A DNA stretch of 34,679 nt. Source: Calditrichaceae bacterium. Lineage in GTDB: Bacteria; Calditrichota; Calditrichia; Calditrichales; Calditrichaceae. The position numbers were made by a program, and so were the translations under genes. Positions 3,873-14,640 of this stretch are shown here, piece after piece. The DNA lies in assembly GCA_016928315.1 (NCBI GenBank), contig JAFGKZ010000282.1, forward strand, positions 1-34,679, written 5' to 3'. A model generated the notes under the pieces. The model did no database searches. It saw nothing but the letters and a program-made list of their open reading frames with translations, and was not told the DNA's origin. The stretch's first letter is position 1; each line of letters begins with the position of its first letter.

Positions 3873-3934
3873 TGTGGAAATGTTAATGAAAAAAAGATCG
3901 CACATTAAATACAATAATATAATTTTAAATAAAA

Positions 3935-3987
3935 AACCCGCCAGTCGCGCCGGAAGGCTGGTCAGTCTACCGACTAACCGGCGGGTT
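3935..3987 (-). terminator. 53-bp three-way-junction repeat, copy 1; terminator of the protease gene
   Basis: The outer arms AACCCGCC (3935-3942) and GGCGGGTT (3980-3987) pair perfectly. Inside is a hairpin AGTC-TACC-GACT (3964-3975) and a second arm built on GCC-GGAA-GGC. On the minus strand the structure starts 6 bases after the protease stop and runs into TTTTTTATTT, as an intrinsic terminator should. The same 53 bases recur in inverted orientation at 10470-10522 (40 of 53 identical, no gaps). Confidence 0.75.
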
Positions 3988-3993
3988 AATTAA

Positions 3994-6900
3994 TTATTTA
4001 ATCAACAGCATCCGTTTTACATCATTGAATTTTCCGGCCTGTATTTTATAGAAGTAGACCCCTGAGGCCAGGCCCTTTGCGTCAAAAGTTACGGTGTACG
4101 ATCCCGCCGGTTTAAAGCTGTTCACCAGTTCCCTTACTTTTTGTCCGTTTACGTTGTAAACGACAAGAGATACATGCGTATCCTCGGGAAGGTTATAGCG
4201 TATAGTCGTAACCGGGTTGAACGGATTGGGATAGTTTTGAGCAAGGTCATAAGTTTGTGGGATTTCCAGTTCTGCTATTGCCAGCTCTTCAAGAGCAGAT
4301 TTTGCCATCGCTTCGTTTTCTTCCAGATAACTCTTCGTCAATAAAATATTAGTACGTTTTATAAGACGATTATTATTGTTAATTTCCGGAGGCATGTCGC
4401 CCTTAGAATATACCTTTGAAGAGATTTCATTGATAATGTTCGTCTCAACAGTAATTCTGGCCCGAACCGATGCAGCGGTTAAACCTTTGGTATTTAATTT
4501 GAATGAATAAGTTTTAAAAGCAGGCGTATCCCCGGCATCGTGCGATTTGTCTTTAATTTTGCCTAATACTTTCCCTGTAGCGTCGTCAATCAGTTCGACC
4601 TTATATTTTATGTAATCTTTCTTTGCCAATTTTTTTGATGCAGTGAGCGAATCGGCAAATCCTGATTTTTCTGTAAATACAATATTTGAATTGGCGGTTA
4701 CCTGGAAAGGTTCGGTTATAAGCGCGTTGTTCAGATTATCCAGCCTGCCGAAATTCATTGTATCGGGTACATCCACAAAATTAATATTATTACCGTCCAC
4801 ATTAAGTCCTTCCAGGCGGTAACTGAATGTGGCCTCGTCATTCAGGATCATAAAACCCCGCCCGGTGATAACATTGGAATTTACCTTAGGCAATGGATTC
4901 AAAGCATTGGATGTTTTAAAGTAATAAGGTGAGCTGAAAGGATAAAAGGATGAAACGCGCATATTCGACAAATCGCTACCCGCCCCGTTGCCCAACTGGA
5001 CATATTTTCCGGTCGTATTAAGCGTGCGTAATGTTGAGGTGTTCGGACTTCCGTTATCAAAGCGCATGGACTTGTTGTACCAGGTGCCCGAATAATTCTG
5101 CTTGCTCCAGGCTATATAACCGCTGGCGCTGTTTGCGCCCTGATTTATGGAACATGATCTGACGCCGGAATCATAATAAGTTAGACTTGATGCACCACAA
5201 AGCCGATAAGCCAAAACCTCGTATTCTACCCAGCAGGCTAAATAGAACAGACCGGGAAGCGTTACGATGGCAGGACTGATGTTGGCATAAGGATAGGATA
5301 TCAATCCATCAATATATTCATTTAAATACCAATTAGAATAATAATAATAAAAATAGAGTGATCCGCTGTACATTCCACCCGAATAGTTTCCCTGTTGATA
5401 GATAAAATTAGCGCTGATTGTATGATAATCATCCACATAAAGCTGGATGTTGGTTGAGCTGGAGTTCGTACCGGTAATTTTACCATGTTCAACCGGTGGA
5501 TTAAAATAAGTATCATATTGGCCGCTTCCGCCCTGAATATGGCCTACAAACCAGTTTATGCCTGCCGGATAATTTCCGCTGGTATACTTTTTTTCGATAG
5601 TTAGCAGATATGGTCCTGCCCATCCACCGTCCAGGCATAAATTAGGATTTGTATTGTAACCGGCATATGTCTCCAGGGGTTCGGTATAAAGCGTCATGGT
5701 CGAAGAGAATAAACCTGGAATACCGCTGCCTCCGGACATCTGATTGCACATTTTCCCTTTTATCCGGTAAGTAGAGCCGTATTTTTCCTGCCATACGATA
5801 CCAATGTAATACGTTTCATCACCATAGCCCCAGTCCTGGTATGTATAAGCAATAGAAGGATTTTTAGCGCCGCCGGAGCTGCCATCCAGGGGCTGACGGT
5901 TATTGCCTAATGTCCAGGTAGCGCCGCCGTCATTGGAATGTTCTATCCAGACATGGTTTCCGCTGGCATAAACCTGGTGCAGCCAGGTTACGCCGTCAAT
6001 TTTTGTTTCAATGAGCTTGCGCTGGCCGTTGTTGGAATAGGCGCTGGATGTATTGGAAAGCTGCGAGGCTTTAATATTGGCGGAGACTGTAGCGTTGGGA
6101 TAGTGGAATACTACGCCGGTTTCCTGAGCTGTAGGGTTCTGAAAAGTTGCGAACTCAAAATCAGGCAAAGCCGTCCAGTTGATCAGGTAGACTTTTCTGC
6201 TGCCGATCGATCCGCCGAAATTCATGGTTTCAGGAACACCTACGGAATAATTAGGTAATAAAGGATCAAATGAGGGATCTTGATTGAGAAAGACTCCCTG
6301 GTGCCCGGATCCGGTAGATACGCTATACGGAGAAGTGTACGATTTTAACGGCGCAGATAAACCCCGGTTGCGGTAACCGTAAGGCGACTCATAATAATCG
6401 CGCAGCCAGGGATCTTTAAATTCAATCGTGCCCAAAGTAAATCCATCGGCAAAAGTATTTTTTACCGTTGCGCCGGCCACTTCATTTTCAAATTGGGAAA
6501 CAATAGGCTCCAATCCCGCTGCTATATCAAAATGTTCAAAGAATTTATAATCCGATTGTTTCCAATGATGAAATTTTTCATCTCCATCAAGTACACTTGA
6601 AGCTTTTAAAGAATGATTACTTCCGCTTGACCAATAAAATTCAGCAGGGGCATTATAATCTTCCCAGGCGCTTTCCCAATGATAAATTTTATCGAATGAA
6701 GCACCGTTCGATTTTTTCTGATCAACTATAGTTGGATATTGCCCGCCGCCCAGAGCTTCCAGGGCGTTGGCTTTGCCGTAACCGGAATGCTTGTTCCATG
6801 TACCGCCCGTGCCGCCGGCAATGCCGTCCGCATTATCCGTAAGATCATCATAAAAATCTTCCGGGCTGCTTGCGCTGTAACCGTAATAATCCAGGTATAA

Positions 6901-8520
6901 AGCGGCAATACCGGCAATATGCGGGGCTGCTGCGGAGGTGCCTGGGAATGGCCGGAAATCTGCTATACTGGTTTCAACATTTGAAGTCGCTGTGATTGTC
7001 GGCGTATTGCGCGTTTCAAAAGTATAATTCCCCAGAAATATTTTTGTGGGACCGCGGGAACTGTAAGAGGCAATTTGATCCGGTTCGTCTGTATGGTAAG
7101 CTGCAACGCTTATCACGCCTTCTGCAGCCGGATGACCGAAAATTTGATCACTGGGACCGGATTGACCGCTTGGACCTACAAATTGTAAATGAATAGGATA
7201 AGCATTTAGTTTTAGGTCACAGGCCTCACCGCTGTATTTTTTTATTCTTAAATAATAATAATCTCCCGAGCTGACACCAGGTTGATAGCTTATCACCTCA
7301 AGCGGTGGATTCGAATTGCCGGAACCCTGTCTGGTTGTAGAGTGCGCTACCTCCTGGTCATTCGAGTTATATAGATATAAGTCATAATCATTTAAAGCTT
7401 CATCCCAGTCATCAGCCCATTGCAAATAAAATTTAAACTCAGTATCTGCAGTAGAAGCCGGCAAACTTATCCAGTTATCAGTCGGTGTGGCTCCGCTGGT
7501 ATTAAAGAGATGGTATTCATTGCCATCCCCGTCAAAATGAGCTGAGTACAAACATTCTGCTTCATTACCGGCCGCAGAAATATAGATAATATTATTATTA
7601 TTAATCCAATAGTAAATATATTGAGCCAATACACCATCAGTAAAATAGGGATCATCAAACCATCCGATGTCATCAACTACTATTTTGCAGTACAATCCGT
7701 CTACAGAAATCATTCTTGATATCTCATTGCGCATATTTGTAGAAGAGGCTCCAGCACTGGCAAAGGTAAATGCGCAGCCCGGAGCCAGATCATAAATAAT
7801 TTCCATCATGGCCGTGCCTTCTGCATCGTTATCATCTGAAAGTACTACTATATCTGTAGGCAAATCACCGTTAGCAATTGACGCAACTCTGCCCTGTGCG
7901 CCCCTTGATACTACGCCTACTCTTATACCGCTGCCGTCGACGCCTTTCTGTACCCTAGCTGCCGCTGCAAATAATTCTGCATCACCCTCAGTTTCATAGT
8001 CGCCAATTTTCGAAACGGGATCACTGGCAGTTAAAACCGCATTAACCCGGTCATCTCCGGCAATTTCTTTAATCTGGTCATAAGCGACAAGACAAACAAC
8101 TTCCGGATACCAGTCAATAAAATCTTCCGGGTAATATGCGGTTAATATCTCAACATTTTGAGTTTGCAATTCATCCACAATCAATTCAAAACCTTCTTTG
8201 TTCATTGTTTTGTCAAAAGCCAGTTTAACCCGGATTTTTCCCATATCATCGACGGGTGATACACTGTCCGAAAATCGCTGCTTTATATTCAATGATTTTA
8301 GATTGCCGGAGTTTAATTCTGCGGCCATTTTATCGATTTTTTGTAATACAGCCGAATTAATTTTTTGCTCATTTGGTTTTAAATTTACTTTTGCAGATTC
8401 AATTTTACTGACTTGTTCTTTTATTTTAATTTCCCTGGTTTCATTCTGTTGTCCGGAAACAGGTAGAATAAAAGTCATTAATAAAAAAGTACATAATAGA
8501 TAAATAATGTAGGTTCGCAT
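3994..8520 (-). CDS. Secreted sedolisin-like (S53/S8 fold) protease with type IX-style sorting domain
   Basis: 1508 residues. I start at the ATG at 8520, which has AGGAGG 6 bases upstream and gives a clean signal peptide (MRTYIIYLLCTFLLM); an upstream in-frame TTG at 8550 would put a charged stretch before it. The peptidase domain covers about residues 190-590. The usual subtilisin Asp position reads VGVVSRG and no HGT motif exists. Instead there is EGTAMMEIIYDLAPG, with Glu240 and Asp244 spaced E-x3-D as in sedolisins, VVDDIGW as candidate oxyanion Asp, and nucleophile Ser529 in FPGTSAAAP. The middle (about 600-1350) is a large beta-rich region with two DTMNFG repeats. The last about 85 residues are a T9SS-type sorting domain (QNYPNPFNP ... 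VKRMLLIK). Probably cell-surface or extracellular; substrate unknown. Confidence 0.88.
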   Translation of the reverse strand: MRTYIIYLLCTFLLMTFILPVSGQQNETREIKIKEQVSKIESAKVNLKPNEQKINSAVLQKIDKMAAELNSGNLKSLNIKQRFSDSVSPVDDMGKIRVKLAFDKTMNKEGFELIVDELQTQNVEILTAYYPEDFIDWYPEVVCLVAYDQIKEIAGDDRVNAVLTASDPVSKIGDYETEGDAELFAAAARVQKGVDGSGIRVGVVSRGAQGRVASIANGDLPTDIVVLSDDNDAEGTAMMEIIYDLAPGCAFTFASAGASSTNMRNEISRMISVDGLYCKIVVDDIGWFDDPYFTDGVLAQYIYYWINNNNIIYISAAGNEAECLYSAHFDGDGNEYHLFNTSGATPTDNWISLPASTADTEFKFYLQWADDWDEALNDYDLYLYNSNDQEVAHSTTRQGSGNSNPPLEVISYQPGVSSGDYYYLRIKKYSGEACDLKLNAYPIHLQFVGPSGQSGPSDQIFGHPAAEGVISVAAYHTDEPDQIASYSSRGPTKIFLGNYTFETRNTPTITATSNVETSIADFRPFPGTSAAAPHIAGIAALYLDYYGYSASSPEDFYDDLTDNADGIAGGTGGTWNKHSGYGKANALEALGGGQYPTIVDQKKSNGASFDKIYHWESAWEDYNAPAEFYWSSGSNHSLKASSVLDGDEKFHHWKQSDYKFFEHFDIAAGLEPIVSQFENEVAGATVKNTFADGFTLGTIEFKDPWLRDYYESPYGYRNRGLSAPLKSYTSPYSVSTGSGHQGVFLNQDPSFDPLLPNYSVGVPETMNFGGSIGSRKVYLINWTALPDFEFATFQNPTAQETGVVFHYPNATVSANIKASQLSNTSSAYSNNGQRKLIETKIDGVTWLHQVYASGNHVWIEHSNDGGATWTLGNNRQPLDGSSGGAKNPSIAYTYQDWGYGDETYYIGIVWQEKYGSTYRIKGKMCNQMSGGSGIPGLFSSTMTLYTEPLETYAGYNTNPNLCLDGGWAGPYLLTIEKKYTSGNYPAGINWFVGHIQGGSGQYDTYFNPPVEHGKITGTNSSSTNIQLYVDDYHTISANFIYQQGNYSGGMYSGSLYFYYYYSNWYLNEYIDGLISYPYANISPAIVTLPGLFYLACWVEYEVLAYRLCGASSLTYYDSGVRSCSINQGANSASGYIAWSKQNYSGTWYNKSMRFDNGSPNTSTLRTLNTTGKYVQLGNGAGSDLSNMRVSSFYPFSSPYYFKTSNALNPLPKVNSNVITGRGFMILNDEATFSYRLEGLNVDGNNINFVDVPDTMNFGRLDNLNNALITEPFQVTANSNIVFTEKSGFADSLTASKKLAKKDYIKYKVELIDDATGKVLGKIKDKSHDAGDTPAFKTYSFKLNTKGLTAASVRARITVETNIINEISSKVYSKGDMPPEINNNNRLIKRTNILLTKSYLEENEAMAKSALEELAIAELEIPQTYDLAQNYPNPFNPVTTIRYNLPEDTHVSLVVYNVNGQKVRELVNSFKPAGSYTVTFDAKGLASGVYFYKIQAGKFNDVKRMLLIK

Positions 8521-8541
8521 TGATGCCTCCTGATTTTTTTT

Positions 8542-8576
8542 AAGGGGCAAAAATGGTTATATTTGTTTTGCCCCTT
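8542..8576 (-). promoter_or_regulatory. Leader hairpin upstream of the protease gene
   Basis: An 11-bp perfect inverted repeat (AAGGGGCAAAA at 8542-8552, TTTTGCCCCTT at 8566-8576) with a 13-base loop ends 22 bases before the ATG and about 10 bases before the AGGAGG ribosome site. It has no U-tract on the minus strand (A-run instead), so it is more likely a 5'-UTR stability or regulatory hairpin than a terminator. Confidence 0.5.
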
Positions 8577-8601
8577 GGTTCGTAAGTTGAATTAACAGGG
8601 T

Positions 8602-8640
8602 ATACCCGGAGCTGGCTGCTACCGCCTCCGGGTATTTTTT
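8602..8640 (+). terminator. Plus-oriented intrinsic terminator-like hairpin
   Basis: ATACCCGGAG (8602-8611) pairs with CTCCGGGTAT (8626-8635), followed on the plus strand by a T-run. A second palindrome, GGGTATACCC (8598-8607), overlaps the left arm. No plus-strand gene lies upstream. It sits 34 bases past the stop of the minus-strand lipoprotein gene but lacks a U-tract in that direction, so it could serve either the lipoprotein transcript weakly or stop antisense transcription. Confidence 0.5.
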
Positions 8641-8668
8641 AAAACAATCAAAATTAGCCTCCTTTCTT

Positions 8669-9925
8669 TTAATTATTTCTGGTTAACATAATTAATCGTG
8701 CTGATCTAGAAGTATAACCAACAGCTATAACCAGATTATCCTTGACGTCAACAGAAACATAGCTTCCATAGAATGTTGAGGGCAGCTCATACCAGCTTTT
8801 ACCGTTAAAGTGGGCTATGTAACCATAACCGCCAACGGTGTAAATATCATTTAACTCATTCCCCCTGACCTTGTGCATAAAATAAGGGGATAAATTATCA
8901 TAAACTTTCCAGCTCTTTAATCCTGTAAGTGAGGTCATTTTATCACCGCTTACAAATATTTTTCTTTCATTTTTAAACCACACGGAATAAGGCTTAAGAT
9001 CCTCATAAGGCCAGTCAAAACTGGAGACGGTATTATCCTCATTGATTTTTAACAGCAAATCCTCGCTTTCACGAAAGATCTGGGAAGCGGTACAGAGTAT
9101 AAAATCTTTGCCGGTTTTTGTATTTTCAGCCCCCCAAATATCCTGAATATTTTCAGTTGTTCCGCTCTCTATCTTTACCCAGTTCTGACCGTTATAATAG
9201 GCAATACTACCGCCCCTTCCCACAAAATAAATATCTCGGGAATTGCTTCCCCAGATTTTTGAGAGGGACAAATTTGGATCGACAGTTGTTCTAACATCAT
9301 ATATTATCCAATTATTATCATCGACACGAATAGGTAAGCTTCCCGCAAACCATATGTCAGAAGATATGAAAGAAAATACACCTTCCAGGGGGGGGCTAAT
9401 TAAATTATCTCGGAAATTTACAGTTATTTTCATTAATGTCCATTCAATTCCATCCCAATGTGCGGCATTAAAATTACCCTCTGCCGTAGAAATATCCCCG
9501 GTAACCCAGATATCGGATTCATTTATTATGGAGACATCGCTGAATGAACTGCTGCCGTAACCCGCCTCGCCGCCAAACTCATATACCTGCCAGGTAAAAT
9601 TATGGCTGGTGGTATCCAGGGTGGTAATAGCAACAGAACCGGACGTTTCACTGCCGCTGGAAGCCTGGTAGCGGTAAGTCGTATTGGGCGTCAGACCGGT
9701 ATCCATCACCGTCGTATCCGGCCGGGATAGCGTAAATTCCATAATGGCGTTGCCATCGCGCTGAAGCGTAATATCACGGCCGCCTGGTCCGTAAATTGAT
9801 ATCCATGCTTCTGTGCAGGAAGTTTCATCTACCTTTAATTGCATTATTTCATCTTCGGGATCGGATAAACAGGAAACAAAAGTAAAAAGGGAAAAGGTAA
9901 AAGTAAAAAGTAATGTGATTTTCAT
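8669..9925 (-). CDS. Lipoprotein with Fn3-like domain and beta-propeller-type repeats
   Basis: 418 residues from the ATG at 9925; a GTG three codons upstream is possible but less likely. The N-terminus is a lipoprotein signal (MKITLLFTFTFSLFTFVSC), so Cys19 is probably lipidated. Residues about 25-105 look like a fibronectin type III domain (LTPNTTYRYQA). The rest has blade-like repeats with recurring SDIWVTG, SDIWFAG, RDIYFVG, NDIYTVG and VIAVGY, usually followed by a FNG-x-SW or YNGQNW turn, as in secreted beta-propellers of this phylum. No enzymatic motif is seen. It lies between two other exported proteins transcribed the same way and is followed upstream by a scrap of a close paralogue. 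Confidence 0.8.
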   Translation of the reverse strand: MKITLLFTFTFSLFTFVSCLSDPEDEIMQLKVDETSCTEAWISIYGPGGRDITLQRDGNAIMEFTLSRPDTTVMDTGLTPNTTYRYQASSGSETSGSVAITTLDTTSHNFTWQVYEFGGEAGYGSSSFSDVSIINESDIWVTGDISTAEGNFNAAHWDGIEWTLMKITVNFRDNLISPPLEGVFSFISSDIWFAGSLPIRVDDNNWIIYDVRTTVDPNLSLSKIWGSNSRDIYFVGRGGSIAYYNGQNWVKIESGTTENIQDIWGAENTKTGKDFILCTASQIFRESEDLLLKINEDNTVSSFDWPYEDLKPYSVWFKNERKIFVSGDKMTSLTGLKSWKVYDNLSPYFMHKVRGNELNDIYTVGGYGYIAHFNGKSWYELPSTFYGSYVSVDVKDNLVIAVGYTSRSARLIMLTRNN

Positions 9926-9952
9926 ATTGTACACTCTTTTTTATATAAAAGT

Positions 9953-10024
9953 TTAGTTTCTGGTTAACATCAGAACACGCGCCGAACGGTCCGTATAACC
10001 AACCGCAACATCCATATTGTTATA
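9953..10024 (-). pseudogene. C-terminal remnant of a paralogue of the neighbouring lipoprotein
   Basis: On the minus strand this stretch encodes YNNMDVAVGYTDRSARVLML followed by TRN and a stop. It aligns with the last residues of the lipoprotein gene at 8669-9925 (NLVIAVGYTSRSARLIML, TRNN); 15 of 21 aligned residues are identical. A TAA stop lies directly upstream in the same frame, and no further similarity to the lipoprotein is visible beyond it. It is the 3' scrap of a lost tandem duplicate. Confidence 0.8.
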
Positions 10025-10305
10025 TTAATCCGGAGCGTTAGGCGTTTGTTCAAATATACCGGATTACCTGAACAAAATCACTGCCTTTCACCGGCGATGT
10101 TATACTATCTCAACCTCGCTTCATTTATTCCGGTTTACCGCCTGCCAAATAATCTATAAAAAAAATATAATTGTTGATATGATTAAGTCTTTTACTGCAT
10201 TACCTGTGAGTCAGATCTTGTTGAATTTTAAAGACTTATTGAAATATTTTAATAACAAATAACGTGCCAGACAAGGGTAAATTTTGTAATAGCCGTATAA
10301 ACAAC

Positions 10306-10326
10306 AGGTTAGGTTAGGTTAGGTTA
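10306..10326. repeat. Pentanucleotide tandem repeat (AGGTT)4
   Basis: Four perfect AGGTT units plus one base occur in a non-coding spacer. Five is not a multiple of three, but no reading frame crosses it, so any copy-number slippage would affect spacing rather than a protein. Confidence 0.9.
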
Positions 10327-10352
10327 GATATGCGGAAGGATCGTTCACAAAG

Positions 10353-10370
10353 TGAGAACAATTGTTCACA
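10353..10370. promoter_or_regulatory. Operator-like palindrome
   Basis: TGAGAACAATTGTTCACA is an 18-bp near-palindrome with a perfect 12-bp core GAACAATTGTTC. A further GTTCAC half lies just to the left at 10343-10348. The form suits a dimeric regulator, but which gene it controls is unclear; the nearest minus-strand start is over 400 bases away, behind the paralogue remnant. Confidence 0.4.
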
Positions 10371-10469
10371 GGTGTAAACTTTTAATCACATTAATATTAG
10401 GAGATAAAGCGCATGTATGCAGATTGCATTTTACACTAATTCTATCAGTTTAAATCTGAACACATAAAA

Positions 10470-10522
10470 AATCCGCCTTTCAGTCGGTAGACTGATCCGC
10501 ACGCCGGCGTGATCGGCGGATT
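10470..10522 (-). terminator. 53-bp three-way-junction repeat, copy 2 (inverted core); terminator of the repeat protein gene
   Basis: The outer arms AATCCGCC (10470-10477) and GGCGGATT (10515-10522) pair perfectly. Inside are TCAGTC-GGTA-GACTGA and the self-complementary CACGCCGGCGTG. On the minus strand it lies 5 bases after the stop of the 1370-residue gene and runs into TTTTTTATG. The core is in the opposite orientation to copy 1 relative to the U-tract, and the third pair of the outer stem changes from C-G to T-A, a compensatory change. Confidence 0.75.
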
Positions 10523-10527
10523 ATATA

Positions 10528-13500
10528 TTATTGAGTTCCTGAGGTATCAGCCGGCGCTTCAACCGGTTCGGGTACCGGCTTCGCTTTGACCGTTATTGTA
10601 CAGCGTGTACTGGCTTCATCGGTACCGTCGCTCACTTTTACCACCAGGGCATATTCGCCAACCTGGTCATCGGACGGCGTCCAGCTGAATTGCCCGCTGT
10701 TCCCGTCAAAATCAGCGCCTGAAGGCAAATTGCCGCATTCAAAGGTCAGATCATCACCATCGGGATCACTGCCGCTAAACGAAACCTGGACCGCGCTGCC
10801 GACCTCGACCGTTTCAGAAGTTGAGCCGCTTATTTTTGGTGCACGATTCACATTGTTCACTTTTATTTCCGCTGTCTGGGAAACCGTTTCTTTACCGTCG
10901 CTCAATTTAAATGTTACGGAATAATCACCAGCCTGGGTAAATGTCGGTTTCCATGTGAATTCACCGGAGCTGCTGTTCAGGCTTGTACCTGAAGGTAAAT
11001 TATCCGCACTGTAAGTCAGCGTGTTATCCGTATCCTCATCACTGCCGACAAGATTTATTTTTAATTCCTCATTCTCATTTACCTGAGCATCAGCCACGGC
11101 ATTCAATACCGGTGCACGATTCACGTCCGTAACTGTAATAACAGCGCTATGCTCTGCAGACAGTCCGGCCGGATCGTTAACTTTGAAATTTAACGTAAAT
11201 TCGCCGGCTTGAGTGAAATTCGGCGTCCAGGCAAACTCGCCACTCTGGGCATTCAGGGTTGCGCCTGCCGGTAAATTGGAACAGGCATAAACCAGTTTGC
11301 CTTCATCTTCTTTGTCCGGGTCCGTTCCGCTTAGGGTAAAAGAGATAACTGCATTTTCAGCGCCGCCGGCTGCAGGAACAGCTGCTAATTCCGGCGTACG
11401 GTTGACATGATTTACTTTTAGATTAAATGTTTTCGAATCGCTTAAACCTTCCGAATCATTGAGATTTACAGTTATTCCCGTATAATCTCCGGACTGATCG
11501 AACGTCGGTGTCCAGTTGAATTGAGCGGAGGCAGCGTCAAATTTTGCGCCATCCGGCAGGTTCTCAGCTGTAATTACCAGCTTACCTTCATCCTCCTTAT
11601 CAGGATCCGAATATTCAACTTTCAGACTCCAGGGCTGATTTTCATCCACTACCTGATCGGTAATAGCTGTAATCACCGGCGGACGATTGACATGATTTAC
11701 AGTTATGGTCATTGGTTGAGAGACGGTAAAAGCGCCATCCGTTGCACTGAAACTAATAGTATATGATCCGGATTGATCATAAGTCGGCATCCAGTTAAAA
11801 GTCAGCGCTGTGGCGTCAAATACGGCGCCTTCCGGCAGATCAGCCGCCTGATAGGTAATTTTACCTTCATCTTCTTCATCGGGATCGGTTGCAGGAATCA
11901 GATTATAGGCCAGGGCCGTATTTTCATCTACAGCCTGAGCTGCCTGTTCGGGCAGAATCGGCGTACGATTTACATGGTTGACTGTAATTTCTGCCGTTTT
12001 CTGATCCGTTAAACCGCCCGGGTCCTTGTTCATGAATACCACCTGGTAACTGCCGGATTGTTCAAAAGTCGGCGTCCAGCTAAACTTATCAGCTGTGGAG
12101 TCAAATACTGCGCCATCAGGCAATCCCTGCGCCTGAATAGACCATTTACCTTTATCTTCCGCATCCGGATCAGAACCGGACAGATCAAATGTCAGTAATG
12201 CATTTTCATCAACACTTTGGGCTGTAACAACATCCATTACCGGCGGACGGTTAACATGGTTAACTGTAATTGTAGTTGATTTAGTATCGCTCAACCGGCC
12301 GTCGCTTACGGTAAAGGAAACCGGGTAGGAACCGGATTGATCATAAGTTGGGGTCCAGGTGACATTGGTTCCATTTAAAGCTGCCCCTTCCGGTAAACCT
12401 TTTGCAGTATAAACCAGTTTGCCTTCATCCTCAACATCAAGATCACTTCCAACTAAAGTAAAAGCAAGATTTGCATTTTCATCCACCGTCTGTGGAGGTA
12501 TTTCTGCTAATACCGGCGGACGGTTGACATGCGCAGCAGTAATAGTAATTGATTGCGATGCGGTTAAGCCGGAAGGGTCCACAACGGTAAAGGAAATATT
12601 TTCATAAGTACCGGATTGTTCATATGTTGGCGCCCATTTAAAAAGGAGAGAATCTGCCTTAAACACGGCGCCTTCCGGTAAATTGGATGCCGTATAAACC
12701 AGTTTACCTTCATCCTCTATATCAGGATCGCTCCCGCTTATATTAAATTTTAGTAATTTATTTTCATCCACCTGGGCATCAACAATAGCATCCAGAACCG
12801 GCGGACGATTTACATGATTTACAGTCACGTTAAAAGTTATCGAATCGCTCAAGGCGCCAGCTTTGAAAATAAAGAGTAATGAGGCATACGCACCACTTTG
12901 ATCATAGGTTGGCGTCCAGCTTAGCGTGGCTGTCTGCGGATCGAAGCCGGCACCTTTTGGTAAATTTTGTGCATGATAGCTCAAAGCATTTTGATCTTCC
13001 ATATCCGGATCACTGCCGCTCAATGTAACGGTTAAAAGTTCATTTTCATTGACTATCTGATTGGCAACCGGTTCCAATACCGGTTTCCGGTCGATATGGT
13101 TCACAGTTAAAACCGAAGCATCACGATAGACGCCCCCTGCAGGGTCCATAATGGCAAAATCCACGGTATAGACGCCGGATTGTTCATAGGTCGGTGTCCA
13201 TGCAAACACACGCGTTTGTGGATTAAATTGAGCGCCATCAGGCAAACCTTGTGCATCATAAGTTAATCTGCCTTTGTCCTCGATATCCGGGTCGCTGCCC
13301 TCCGGTATCGTAAACGTGAGCAATTTATCTTCATCAATCACATAATCTTCAACATCGGGTAATTCGGGATTACGATTGACATGAGTAACGGTAATCTCAA
13401 ATTCGGTTGAGGTACTCAATTTGCTGTCCGTTTTTTCGATCACAGTAATATTTACTTTTGGATAGCGTCCGGACTGTTCGTAATTTGGTATCCAGGTTAA

Positions 13501-14640
13501 TTCGCCGGATGAAGAATCAAATACAGCTCCTTCCGGTAGATTCTTTATAGTAAAATAAATTTCATCGCCATCCGGATCGTAGGCATCCGGAACAATTAAC
13601 AGTTCACTATTCTCTTCCACTATCTGATCGTTAACCCGTGCTATTACAGGTTCGAAATTTTGCCGCACAATGAGCGTTTGATCATCCGCAGCGGTATATA
13701 CATATACATCCTCTTTAATAGCATAATAAATTTTGCTTTTTGCCAAATATTCACCGGCTTTAACCGGATTTCTTGGATTGGTAACATCGACTATTTCCAG
13801 TTTTTTACCCAATTCATTAGCCATAAACAGGGTATTACGAGTCTTTGATGCATGGTAAACATAACCATCCACCGGCACTTTTGTCACCAGAGACGGCACT
13901 TCCGGACTTGAAACATCCAATATCCATAGTCCGTCTGGTCCATTGGCCACATAAGCCAGGTTTTCTTCAACCTGAATTGTTTTGGCATTTTTCATTCCCA
14001 AAAACTGACCGCGTTTGACAGGCGATCCGGGATTGGATACATCTATAATTACCACACCGGCAGTTTTATCAGCTACATATAAATCGGTACCATAAAGAAA
14101 TAAGCCCCATGCCCAGCCATTCGTATCCAAAGAACCGGATAATCTTGGACGATCCGGCTGCCGGATATTATAAATCGATATACCCTGCGGGCCTTCTGCT
14201 ATATAAACATTTGGGAATTGTGCAATCACCCAAAAGGCCTGTTGGGTAGGCGGGATTATTTTAGACACAAGCCTGATATTTTTCGGATCGGCAATATTCA
14301 GGATATAAACGCCTTCAATTTCTACAGACAAAAAAGCATAATTGCCATCGACATAAACGTTTCTGGTGCGCTTCGTTAATTCATATTTACCAATCTCTTT
14401 TGGATTTTTTGGATCGGATACATCGAGCACCTGCAGCCCTGCCCAGGTATTGGCAACATACAGCTTGTTCCCCTGAAGGAAAAGATTTTGGATTCCATCC
14501 TTAACCGGTTCTCCGGAAATAAGCGTTTGCGGACTAACGGAACTTATAAACTCTGCGCTTGCTTTTTGCGCATTTGCAGAAGTAACTGGAAACAACAGGA
14601 AAGCAATCACAAGGATATATAAGAGAGCTTTACCATTCAT
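10528..14640 (-). CDS. Exported LVIVD-propeller protein with 11 Ig/cadherin-like repeats
   Basis: 1370 residues, ATG at 14640 with AGGAG upstream. Signal peptide 1-24 (ends TSANAQ). Residues about 45-330 hold six or seven LVIVD-type blades, such as AGLQVLDVSDPKNP, GVVIIDVSNPGSP and GLWILDVSSPEVP. From about 335 to 1350 follow eleven repeats of about 92 residues of the putative-Ig (He_PIG/cadherin-like) type, each with VDEN near the start, a GSDPD acidic site, LPEGA, WTPTYDQSG and a closing VNRPP. Repeats 2-9 carry an ED-x-GK insertion after the acidic site (exact EDEGK in repeats 4, 5, 7, 8 and 9), absent in 1, 10 and 11. Such domains usually bind calcium and act as stalks or adhesins. The C-terminus is a Pro/Glu-rich stretch with no sorting domain, so how it stays at the surface is unclear. 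Confidence 0.87.
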   Translation of the reverse strand: MNGKALLYILVIAFLLFPVTSANAQKASAEFISSVSPQTLISGEPVKDGIQNLFLQGNKLYVANTWAGLQVLDVSDPKNPKEIGKYELTKRTRNVYVDGNYAFLSVEIEGVYILNIADPKNIRLVSKIIPPTQQAFWVIAQFPNVYIAEGPQGISIYNIRQPDRPRLSGSLDTNGWAWGLFLYGTDLYVADKTAGVVIIDVSNPGSPVKRGQFLGMKNAKTIQVEENLAYVANGPDGLWILDVSSPEVPSLVTKVPVDGYVYHASKTRNTLFMANELGKKLEIVDVTNPRNPVKAGEYLAKSKIYYAIKEDVYVYTAADDQTLIVRQNFEPVIARVNDQIVEENSELLIVPDAYDPDGDEIYFTIKNLPEGAVFDSSSGELTWIPNYEQSGRYPKVNITVIEKTDSKLSTSTEFEITVTHVNRNPELPDVEDYVIDEDKLLTFTIPEGSDPDIEDKGRLTYDAQGLPDGAQFNPQTRVFAWTPTYEQSGVYTVDFAIMDPAGGVYRDASVLTVNHIDRKPVLEPVANQIVNENELLTVTLSGSDPDMEDQNALSYHAQNLPKGAGFDPQTATLSWTPTYDQSGAYASLLFIFKAGALSDSITFNVTVNHVNRPPVLDAIVDAQVDENKLLKFNISGSDPDIEDEGKLVYTASNLPEGAVFKADSLLFKWAPTYEQSGTYENISFTVVDPSGLTASQSITITAAHVNRPPVLAEIPPQTVDENANLAFTLVGSDLDVEDEGKLVYTAKGLPEGAALNGTNVTWTPTYDQSGSYPVSFTVSDGRLSDTKSTTITVNHVNRPPVMDVVTAQSVDENALLTFDLSGSDPDAEDKGKWSIQAQGLPDGAVFDSTADKFSWTPTFEQSGSYQVVFMNKDPGGLTDQKTAEITVNHVNRTPILPEQAAQAVDENTALAYNLIPATDPDEEDEGKITYQAADLPEGAVFDATALTFNWMPTYDQSGSYTISFSATDGAFTVSQPMTITVNHVNRPPVITAITDQVVDENQPWSLKVEYSDPDKEDEGKLVITAENLPDGAKFDAASAQFNWTPTFDQSGDYTGITVNLNDSEGLSDSKTFNLKVNHVNRTPELAAVPAAGGAENAVISFTLSGTDPDKEDEGKLVYACSNLPAGATLNAQSGEFAWTPNFTQAGEFTLNFKVNDPAGLSAEHSAVITVTDVNRAPVLNAVADAQVNENEELKINLVGSDEDTDNTLTYSADNLPSGTSLNSSSGEFTWKPTFTQAGDYSVTFKLSDGKETVSQTAEIKVNNVNRAPKISGSTSETVEVGSAVQVSFSGSDPDGDDLTFECGNLPSGADFDGNSGQFSWTPSDDQVGEYALVVKVSDGTDEASTRCTITVKAKPVPEPVEAPADTSGTQ

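Follow-up and report, generated by a model that had tools for sequence, protein, structure and literature searches.

The window, a stretch of 34,679 nucleotides of a Calditrichaceae bacterium (contig JAFGKZ010000282.1), contains two copies of a repeat whose core is most probably a non-autonomous, REPIN/SDR-like mini-element of 33 bp inserted into the tips of hairpins, those of terminators at the two window sites. The repeat family, the covariation of its two hairpins, and the precise 33-bp filled and empty sites in other palindromes were observed directly. The unit would enter pre-existing hairpin-forming palindromes at their dyad centre or beside it, in either orientation and without target duplication. 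At 3935 and 10470, it would in each case have entered the tetraloop of an ordinary intrinsic terminator and made a three-way junction of a simple hairpin, with the closing stem and the U-tract unharmed.

The window copies and the repeat unit

The copies at 3935-3987 (+) and 10470-10522 (-) form the strongest inverted-repeat pair within the window and align without gaps with 40 identities over 53 positions, while the direct orientation gives 26/53. The main observations of an earlier note on this DNA were borne out, namely two 53-bp copies in opposite orientations, a closed outer stem with a compensatory C-G to T-A change (unbroken in both copies, with the C-G/U-A swap at columns 3/51), and a conserved inner hairpin (AGTC-TACC-GACT, without differences between the copies). 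Both copies are located 3' of minus-strand genes, 6 nt (copy 1) and 5 nt (copy 2) from the stop codons, and are followed by T6 on the transcribed (-) strand, in agreement with the reported spacing of 5-6 bases and the U-tract. The orientation of the core relative to the gene and the U-tract is opposite in the two copies, and the flip described in the note was thereby confirmed.

The core of copy 1 (TCGCGCCGGAAGGCTGGTCAGTCTACCGACTAA, 3945-3977, +) is a double hairpin matched by the core-only model R2 at 3944-3979 (+, E 1.2e-7). The left (3935-3944, AACCCGCCAG) and right (3978-3987, CCGGCGGGTT) arms of its host palindrome, probably the original terminator stem, pair perfectly over 8 bp and are symmetric about the insert. 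The T-tract at 3931-3936 (T6 on the - strand) belongs to the terminator of the gene at 3994-8550 (-), which ends 6 nt before copy 1 and encodes a subtilase of 1518 aa that carries a secretion-system C-terminal sorting domain. The core of copy 2 (TCACGCCGGCGTGCGGATCAGTCTACCGACTGA, 10480-10512, -; R2 match 10478-10513, -, E 8.9e-10) has the opposite orientation to its own gene. Its host palindrome arms, assigned by flank pairing and read on the - strand, are AATCCGCCGA (10513-10522) and AAGGCGGATT (10470-10479), the latter giving AATCCGCC-GAAA-GGCGGATT with its partner. The T-tract at 10466-10471 (T6 on the - strand) is part of the terminator of the gene at 10528-14640 (-), which ends 5 nt before copy 2; its product of 1370 aa contains LVIVD and repeated Ig/PKD-like domains, and the tandem Ig/PKD-like domains are visible as imperfect DNA repeats of about 280 bp. 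Between the two genes, a 421-aa open frame without a Pfam match was found at 8669-9934, and a 62-nt repeat at its 3' end (8676-8737) recurs at 9957-10018.

The unit consensus TCACGCCNNNNGGCGGATCAGNCTACCGNCTGA folds into two adjacent hairpins with 4-nt loops and no spacer. Among 31 aligned cores, 96% of the cells were paired in the two-hairpin fold, and 42 double-compensated cells were counted versus 14.4 ± 4.5 in shuffled alignments, a value reached in 0 of 500 shuffles. A central GGCG-GATC-CGCC hairpin was rejected as the conserved fold, since it showed no covariation. The consensus approaches a 36-nt palindrome (ATCACGCCGGTAGGCGGATCCGCCTACCGGCGTGAT), with dissimilar halves in most copies. 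No conserved GTAG/CGTC tag was found outside the stems in the 31 aligned cores; the closest approach to it, a reverse-strand GGTAG, falls within hairpin 2, in its loop and stem. In a wider set of copies, the inner part was conserved and the outer stem varied (AATCCGCC, CTCCCTAATG, TCCCTGCAAG, and others). The 53-bp sequence described in the note is present; judged from the sequences compared here, however, the repeat unit is the 33-bp core rather than the 53-mer, and the outer stem is a pre-existing palindrome of the host.

Further copies were found throughout the genome. The 14-nt hairpin, with one mismatch allowed, occurs at six places, five of them in a 53-nt arrangement like that of the window copies. 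A 38-nt pattern with at most three mismatches gave 6 matches, two of them additional, and 0 for the reversed control. The R1 covariance model, built from seven copies, detected 8 strong copies (E<=1e-11, the E-values being rough and the seed sequences matching by construction) and several weaker ones; one strong copy, C140, was outside the seed. The R2 model gave 32 matches, with both strands counted. The family in this genome exceeds chance, and the copies are dispersed, intergenic, covarying and patchily distributed, as expected from the proposed small palindromic REP/MITE-like repeat. None of the own-genome copies examined was located inside an open reading frame of at least 90 aa. The suggestion that the element settles at gene ends applied to some copies: 3 of the 15 examined are no more than 10 nt away from a stop codon, including a third one after a stop codon (C163, 7 nt away, with a T-tract), and the rest are found in hairpins of a MITE or in other palindromes between genes.

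Filled and empty palindromes

A MITE of about 260-330 bp with the ends TTAACGTGAGTTCGAT.../...TCGAACTCAGGTTAA is present in more than 10 copies in the own genome. At its site GTCCGCCAG|CTGGCGGAC, C235 and C178a have the empty palindrome, whereas C243 and C150 have it with 33 bp inside. The site CCCTAAT-NN-ATTAGGG (CTCCCTAAT-NN-ATTAGGGAG) is empty in 7 copies and contains the 33-bp core in C120, C230, C235 and C150. The second MITE tip occurs in three forms, i.e., TGTCC-TTC-GGACA, TGTCCATCGTCCGCCAGCTGGCGGACAAGGACA, and TGTCCATCGTCCGCCAGCTGGCGGACAAGGACA with exactly 33 bp between CCAG and CTGG; the MITE tree does not show in which order these events took place, and some of the copies have a chimeric appearance. 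Some tips were changed otherwise than by a clean 33-bp insertion (TTC to ATCG...CAA at site 1 and a hairpin swap at site 3). The MITE family as a whole (L078-L095, e.g., G000:C120:15464-15764) is bounded by the ends TTAACGTGAGTTCGAT/ATCGAACTCAGGTTAA and contains three hairpin tips, and in two copies the hairpin CGGCTTTAGCCG of the third tip is replaced by TCCCGATTTATCGGGA.

The same pattern was observed in G002, a genome of another genus. A search with CCCCCTTTGNTAAAGGGGG, allowing one mismatch, gave 22 matches with empty palindromes (CCCCCTTTGCTA|AGGGGGG), and at 5 other loci CTA is separated from AGG by exactly 33 additional bases (the 5 filled loci were read beside 12 of the 22 empty ones). 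No target duplication, which in classical MITEs flanks the terminal inverted repeats, was found at the MITE sites or the G002 sites. Filled and empty paralogous sites differ by exactly 33 bp, placed in the centre of the palindrome or beside it.

The flanks of 52 copies were compared with permuted partners. A perfect stem of at least 6 bp was found in 14 copies (permuted mean 1.4, maximum 6 in 500 trials), and in 11 of these 14 the pairing was exactly symmetric around the 33-bp unit (permuted maximum 4). These values are indicative and should not be taken as probabilities, since copies that are related do not count independently. Short direct-repeat contexts (CACGAATT, TTTGGTGCTTG) in place of palindromes were seen for several copies, most of them in G022 and G035, and the tip rule is therefore not absolute.

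Removal of the 33 bp leaves AACCCGCC-AGCC-GGCGGGTT in copy 1 and AATCCGCC-GAAA-GGCGGATT in copy 2, each with an 8-bp stem and T6 on the transcribed strand. The host-only hairpins have folding energies of -16.4 kcal/mol (z -3.2; folded as the transcribed strand with the T-tract included) for copy 1 and -16.1 kcal/mol (z -4.9) for copy 2. Both host sites have the sequence features of an intrinsic terminator (GC-rich stem, T6, and a position 5-6 nt after the stop codon). Uninterrupted hairpins of the host type (CCGCCNNNNGGCGG) were detected at 18 places in the genome versus 2 for the reversed control, and core-free hairpins of this type with T-tracts occur at L098, L099 and L104. From these data, we infer that the window sites were once empty terminators, with the probable pre-insertion forms AACCCGCCAGCCGGCGGGTT and AATCCGCCGAAAGGCGGATT; empty orthologues of these two sites were not seen. 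Gene ends would be hit because terminators are palindromes, the core would be flipped relative to the U-tract because insertion can take either orientation, and the element would seem to serve as a terminator because its host sites are terminator hairpins. The dedicated structured 3' RNA end under selection that the earlier note offered as an alternative is not needed.

Distribution, candidate enzymes, and alternative explanations

Relatives were found by the R1 model in 15 of 40 Calditrichota genomes and by the R2 model in 16 of 40, with 0 to 75 R2 matches per genome (75 in G022, 42 in G035, and 32 in the genome of the window; both strands are included for near-palindromic copies). The R2 search gave no matches in 24 of the 40 genomes, the one-contig G004 among them. 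A strict pattern searched in GTDB species genomes gave 10 exact matches, all 10 in Calditrichota. The genomes are mostly draft metagenome bins, and the core is also present in independent projects and in G016 and G029, whose assemblies consist of 30 contigs and 1 contig, respectively. Three tandem cores with 47-bp spacing were observed within TTTGGTGCTTGT direct repeats at G035:C507:8322-8451. No paper on such repeats in Calditrichota was found among open-licence papers.

That a short unit of constant length is added to the centres of palindromes unrelated in sequence, and that no duplication results, points to hairpin recognition. The target would be a hairpin formed by single-stranded or cruciform DNA, and a trans-acting enzyme, most plausibly a single-stranded DNA transposase of the HUH Y1 type, would recognise it. 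HUH Y1 enzymes act on DNA of this kind. The earlier note had proposed to look for a REP-associated transposase in the genome. The own genome has 7 Y1_Tnp loci; however, none of them has a copy of the element within 1.5 kb, and no RAYT gene flanked by copies was found. Three looser co-occurrences at 2-3 kb (G000 C140, G016 C4, and G022 C221) are about what chance would give (approximately 1.6 expected by a rough hand estimate). Y1 and element counts are weakly correlated (rho 0.40, p 0.012), and G001 contains the element and no detectable Y1 gene. An IS1182-type structure-targeting transposase (DDE_Tnp_1_6, PF13751) was considered, and none was found in the own genome.

TTTA/TAAA-loop hairpins were observed near the own-genome Y1 loci L062 and L063 (CTACGGGATAAATCCCGTAG, AAAGGGCTTTAGCCCTTT), a type also present at the third MITE tip; they are possibly the real REP partners of the L062 and L063 transposases. 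The TTTA-loop hairpins near some Y1 genes were rejected as copies of the present element, being of another hairpin type. CGTC-type REP-like sequences (CGTCATTCCG...CGGAATCCA) occur in the left flank of L044 and near position 1500 of L101, and L101 also has a TCCGCCAATGGGCGGA hairpin within a ATTCCCGC...GCGGGAAT palindrome.

Three other explanations were weighed. Growth of hairpins by replication template switching or by recombination between palindromes, without a defined transposing unit, would account for the MITE tips at sites 1 and 3 that lack a clean insertion and for the flanks shared in part by the filled G002 copies; it is nevertheless unlikely in view of the fixed 33-bp boundaries, the phylum-wide consensus, and a structure that covaries in unrelated contexts. 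The transposing unit might instead be the whole 53-bp three-way junction, a REP-like element carrying its own outer stem and landing near stop codons. Similar outer arms of the TCCGCCAG type are common to the eight strong own-genome copies, and, to judge by these arms, all 53 bp may at times have spread together. As the general mobile element it was rejected, and we consider it improbable, since the core is elsewhere enclosed by unrelated arms (CTCCCTAATG, TCCCTGCAAG, CCCCCTTTG) and exactly 33 bp are present or absent, with the outer stem left behind in empty sites.

Least probable of the three is a conserved 3'-end RNA structure, that is, a regulatory three-way-junction terminator kept by selection. 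Three own-genome copies with U-tracts 5-7 nt after stop codons and covarying stems are what such a structure would show, but the window cores are in reverse orientation to each other, the majority of copies occupy palindromes remote from stop codons, MITE hairpins among them, and orientation-independent, non-genic copies with empty sites were found. Moreover, the family is missing from most relatives, and no Rfam match was obtained in the window at gathering thresholds. Insertion of a 33-bp unit into hairpin tips is therefore the preferred explanation. A broader proposal, made tentatively and with somewhat less than even confidence, is that a sequence-independent, structure-directed pathway in Calditrichota puts the 33-bp double hairpin precisely into hairpin tips, so that terminators might offer it safe places to land and hairpins nested like Russian dolls might accumulate.

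Relation to known mobile repeats

Target choice and movement of REP-like mini-repeats are poorly understood. Defined boundaries, empty sites, and a simple rule (palindrome centre, no duplication) make target choice testable here. Terminators may become junctions and not lose the stem and U-tract, and very small mobile DNA is made visible in a little-studied phylum. The SDR of Nostoc are reportedly (Elhai, 2008) structured mobile repeats of 21-27 nt, nested in minitransposons and short tandem repeats. The present element resembles them, without membership, as a very small structured mobile repeat nested in the same kinds of sequence, but it occurs in another phylum and has two hairpins, whereas an SDR has one. 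The mobility of a very small hairpin unit, characteristic of SDR and of the mitochondrial double-hairpin elements (DHE) of Allomyces, is indicated here by the filled and empty paralogous sites.

REP/REPIN repeats, which are mobilised by RAYT (TnpA-REP), are non-coding intergenic palindromes of 20-100 bp, often inverted dimers, patchy, and with compensatory changes. The present unit shares with them the patchiness, the compensatory changes, and the lack of coding capacity, and as a dispersed intergenic palindromic repeat it falls within the size of about 20-40 bp expected for the GTAG/CGTC super-families. In contrast to these, the 33-bp element lacks a terminal GTAG/CGTC tag, its hairpins abut, no RAYT gene is flanked by copies, and the filled and empty sites place the insert at or next to the tip. 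With neither the tag nor RAYT adjacency, it is therefore called REP/SDR-like and not a member of the REP super-families. REPINs are RAYT-linked doublets (Bertels and Rainey 2011, PMC3116915). There is a precedent for REPs that target palindromes: some GTAG/CGTC REPs were described within palindromes (T. roseum GTAG-23, A. variabilis GTAG-15 dimers, and H. neapolitanus CGTC-1 dimers; Di Nocera 2013, PMC3733652), together with unoccupied palindrome targets in T. roseum (PMC3733652).

The Allomyces DHE and related mitochondrial hairpin elements, described without flanking duplications (PMC2800124), are likewise tandem two-hairpin mobile units; this is a resemblance and not membership. DHE are mitochondrial and unrelated in sequence, and tip insertion is not known to be a rule for them. 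IS1272 (IS1182 family) moves by inverted-repeat-replacing transposition into stem-loop targets of differing sequence without target duplication (PMC5678879). The structure-directed target and the absence of duplication are common to both; however, IS1272 is an autonomous IS of 1.9 kb that replaces the stem-loop, whereas the present element adds 33 bp to a stem that is kept.
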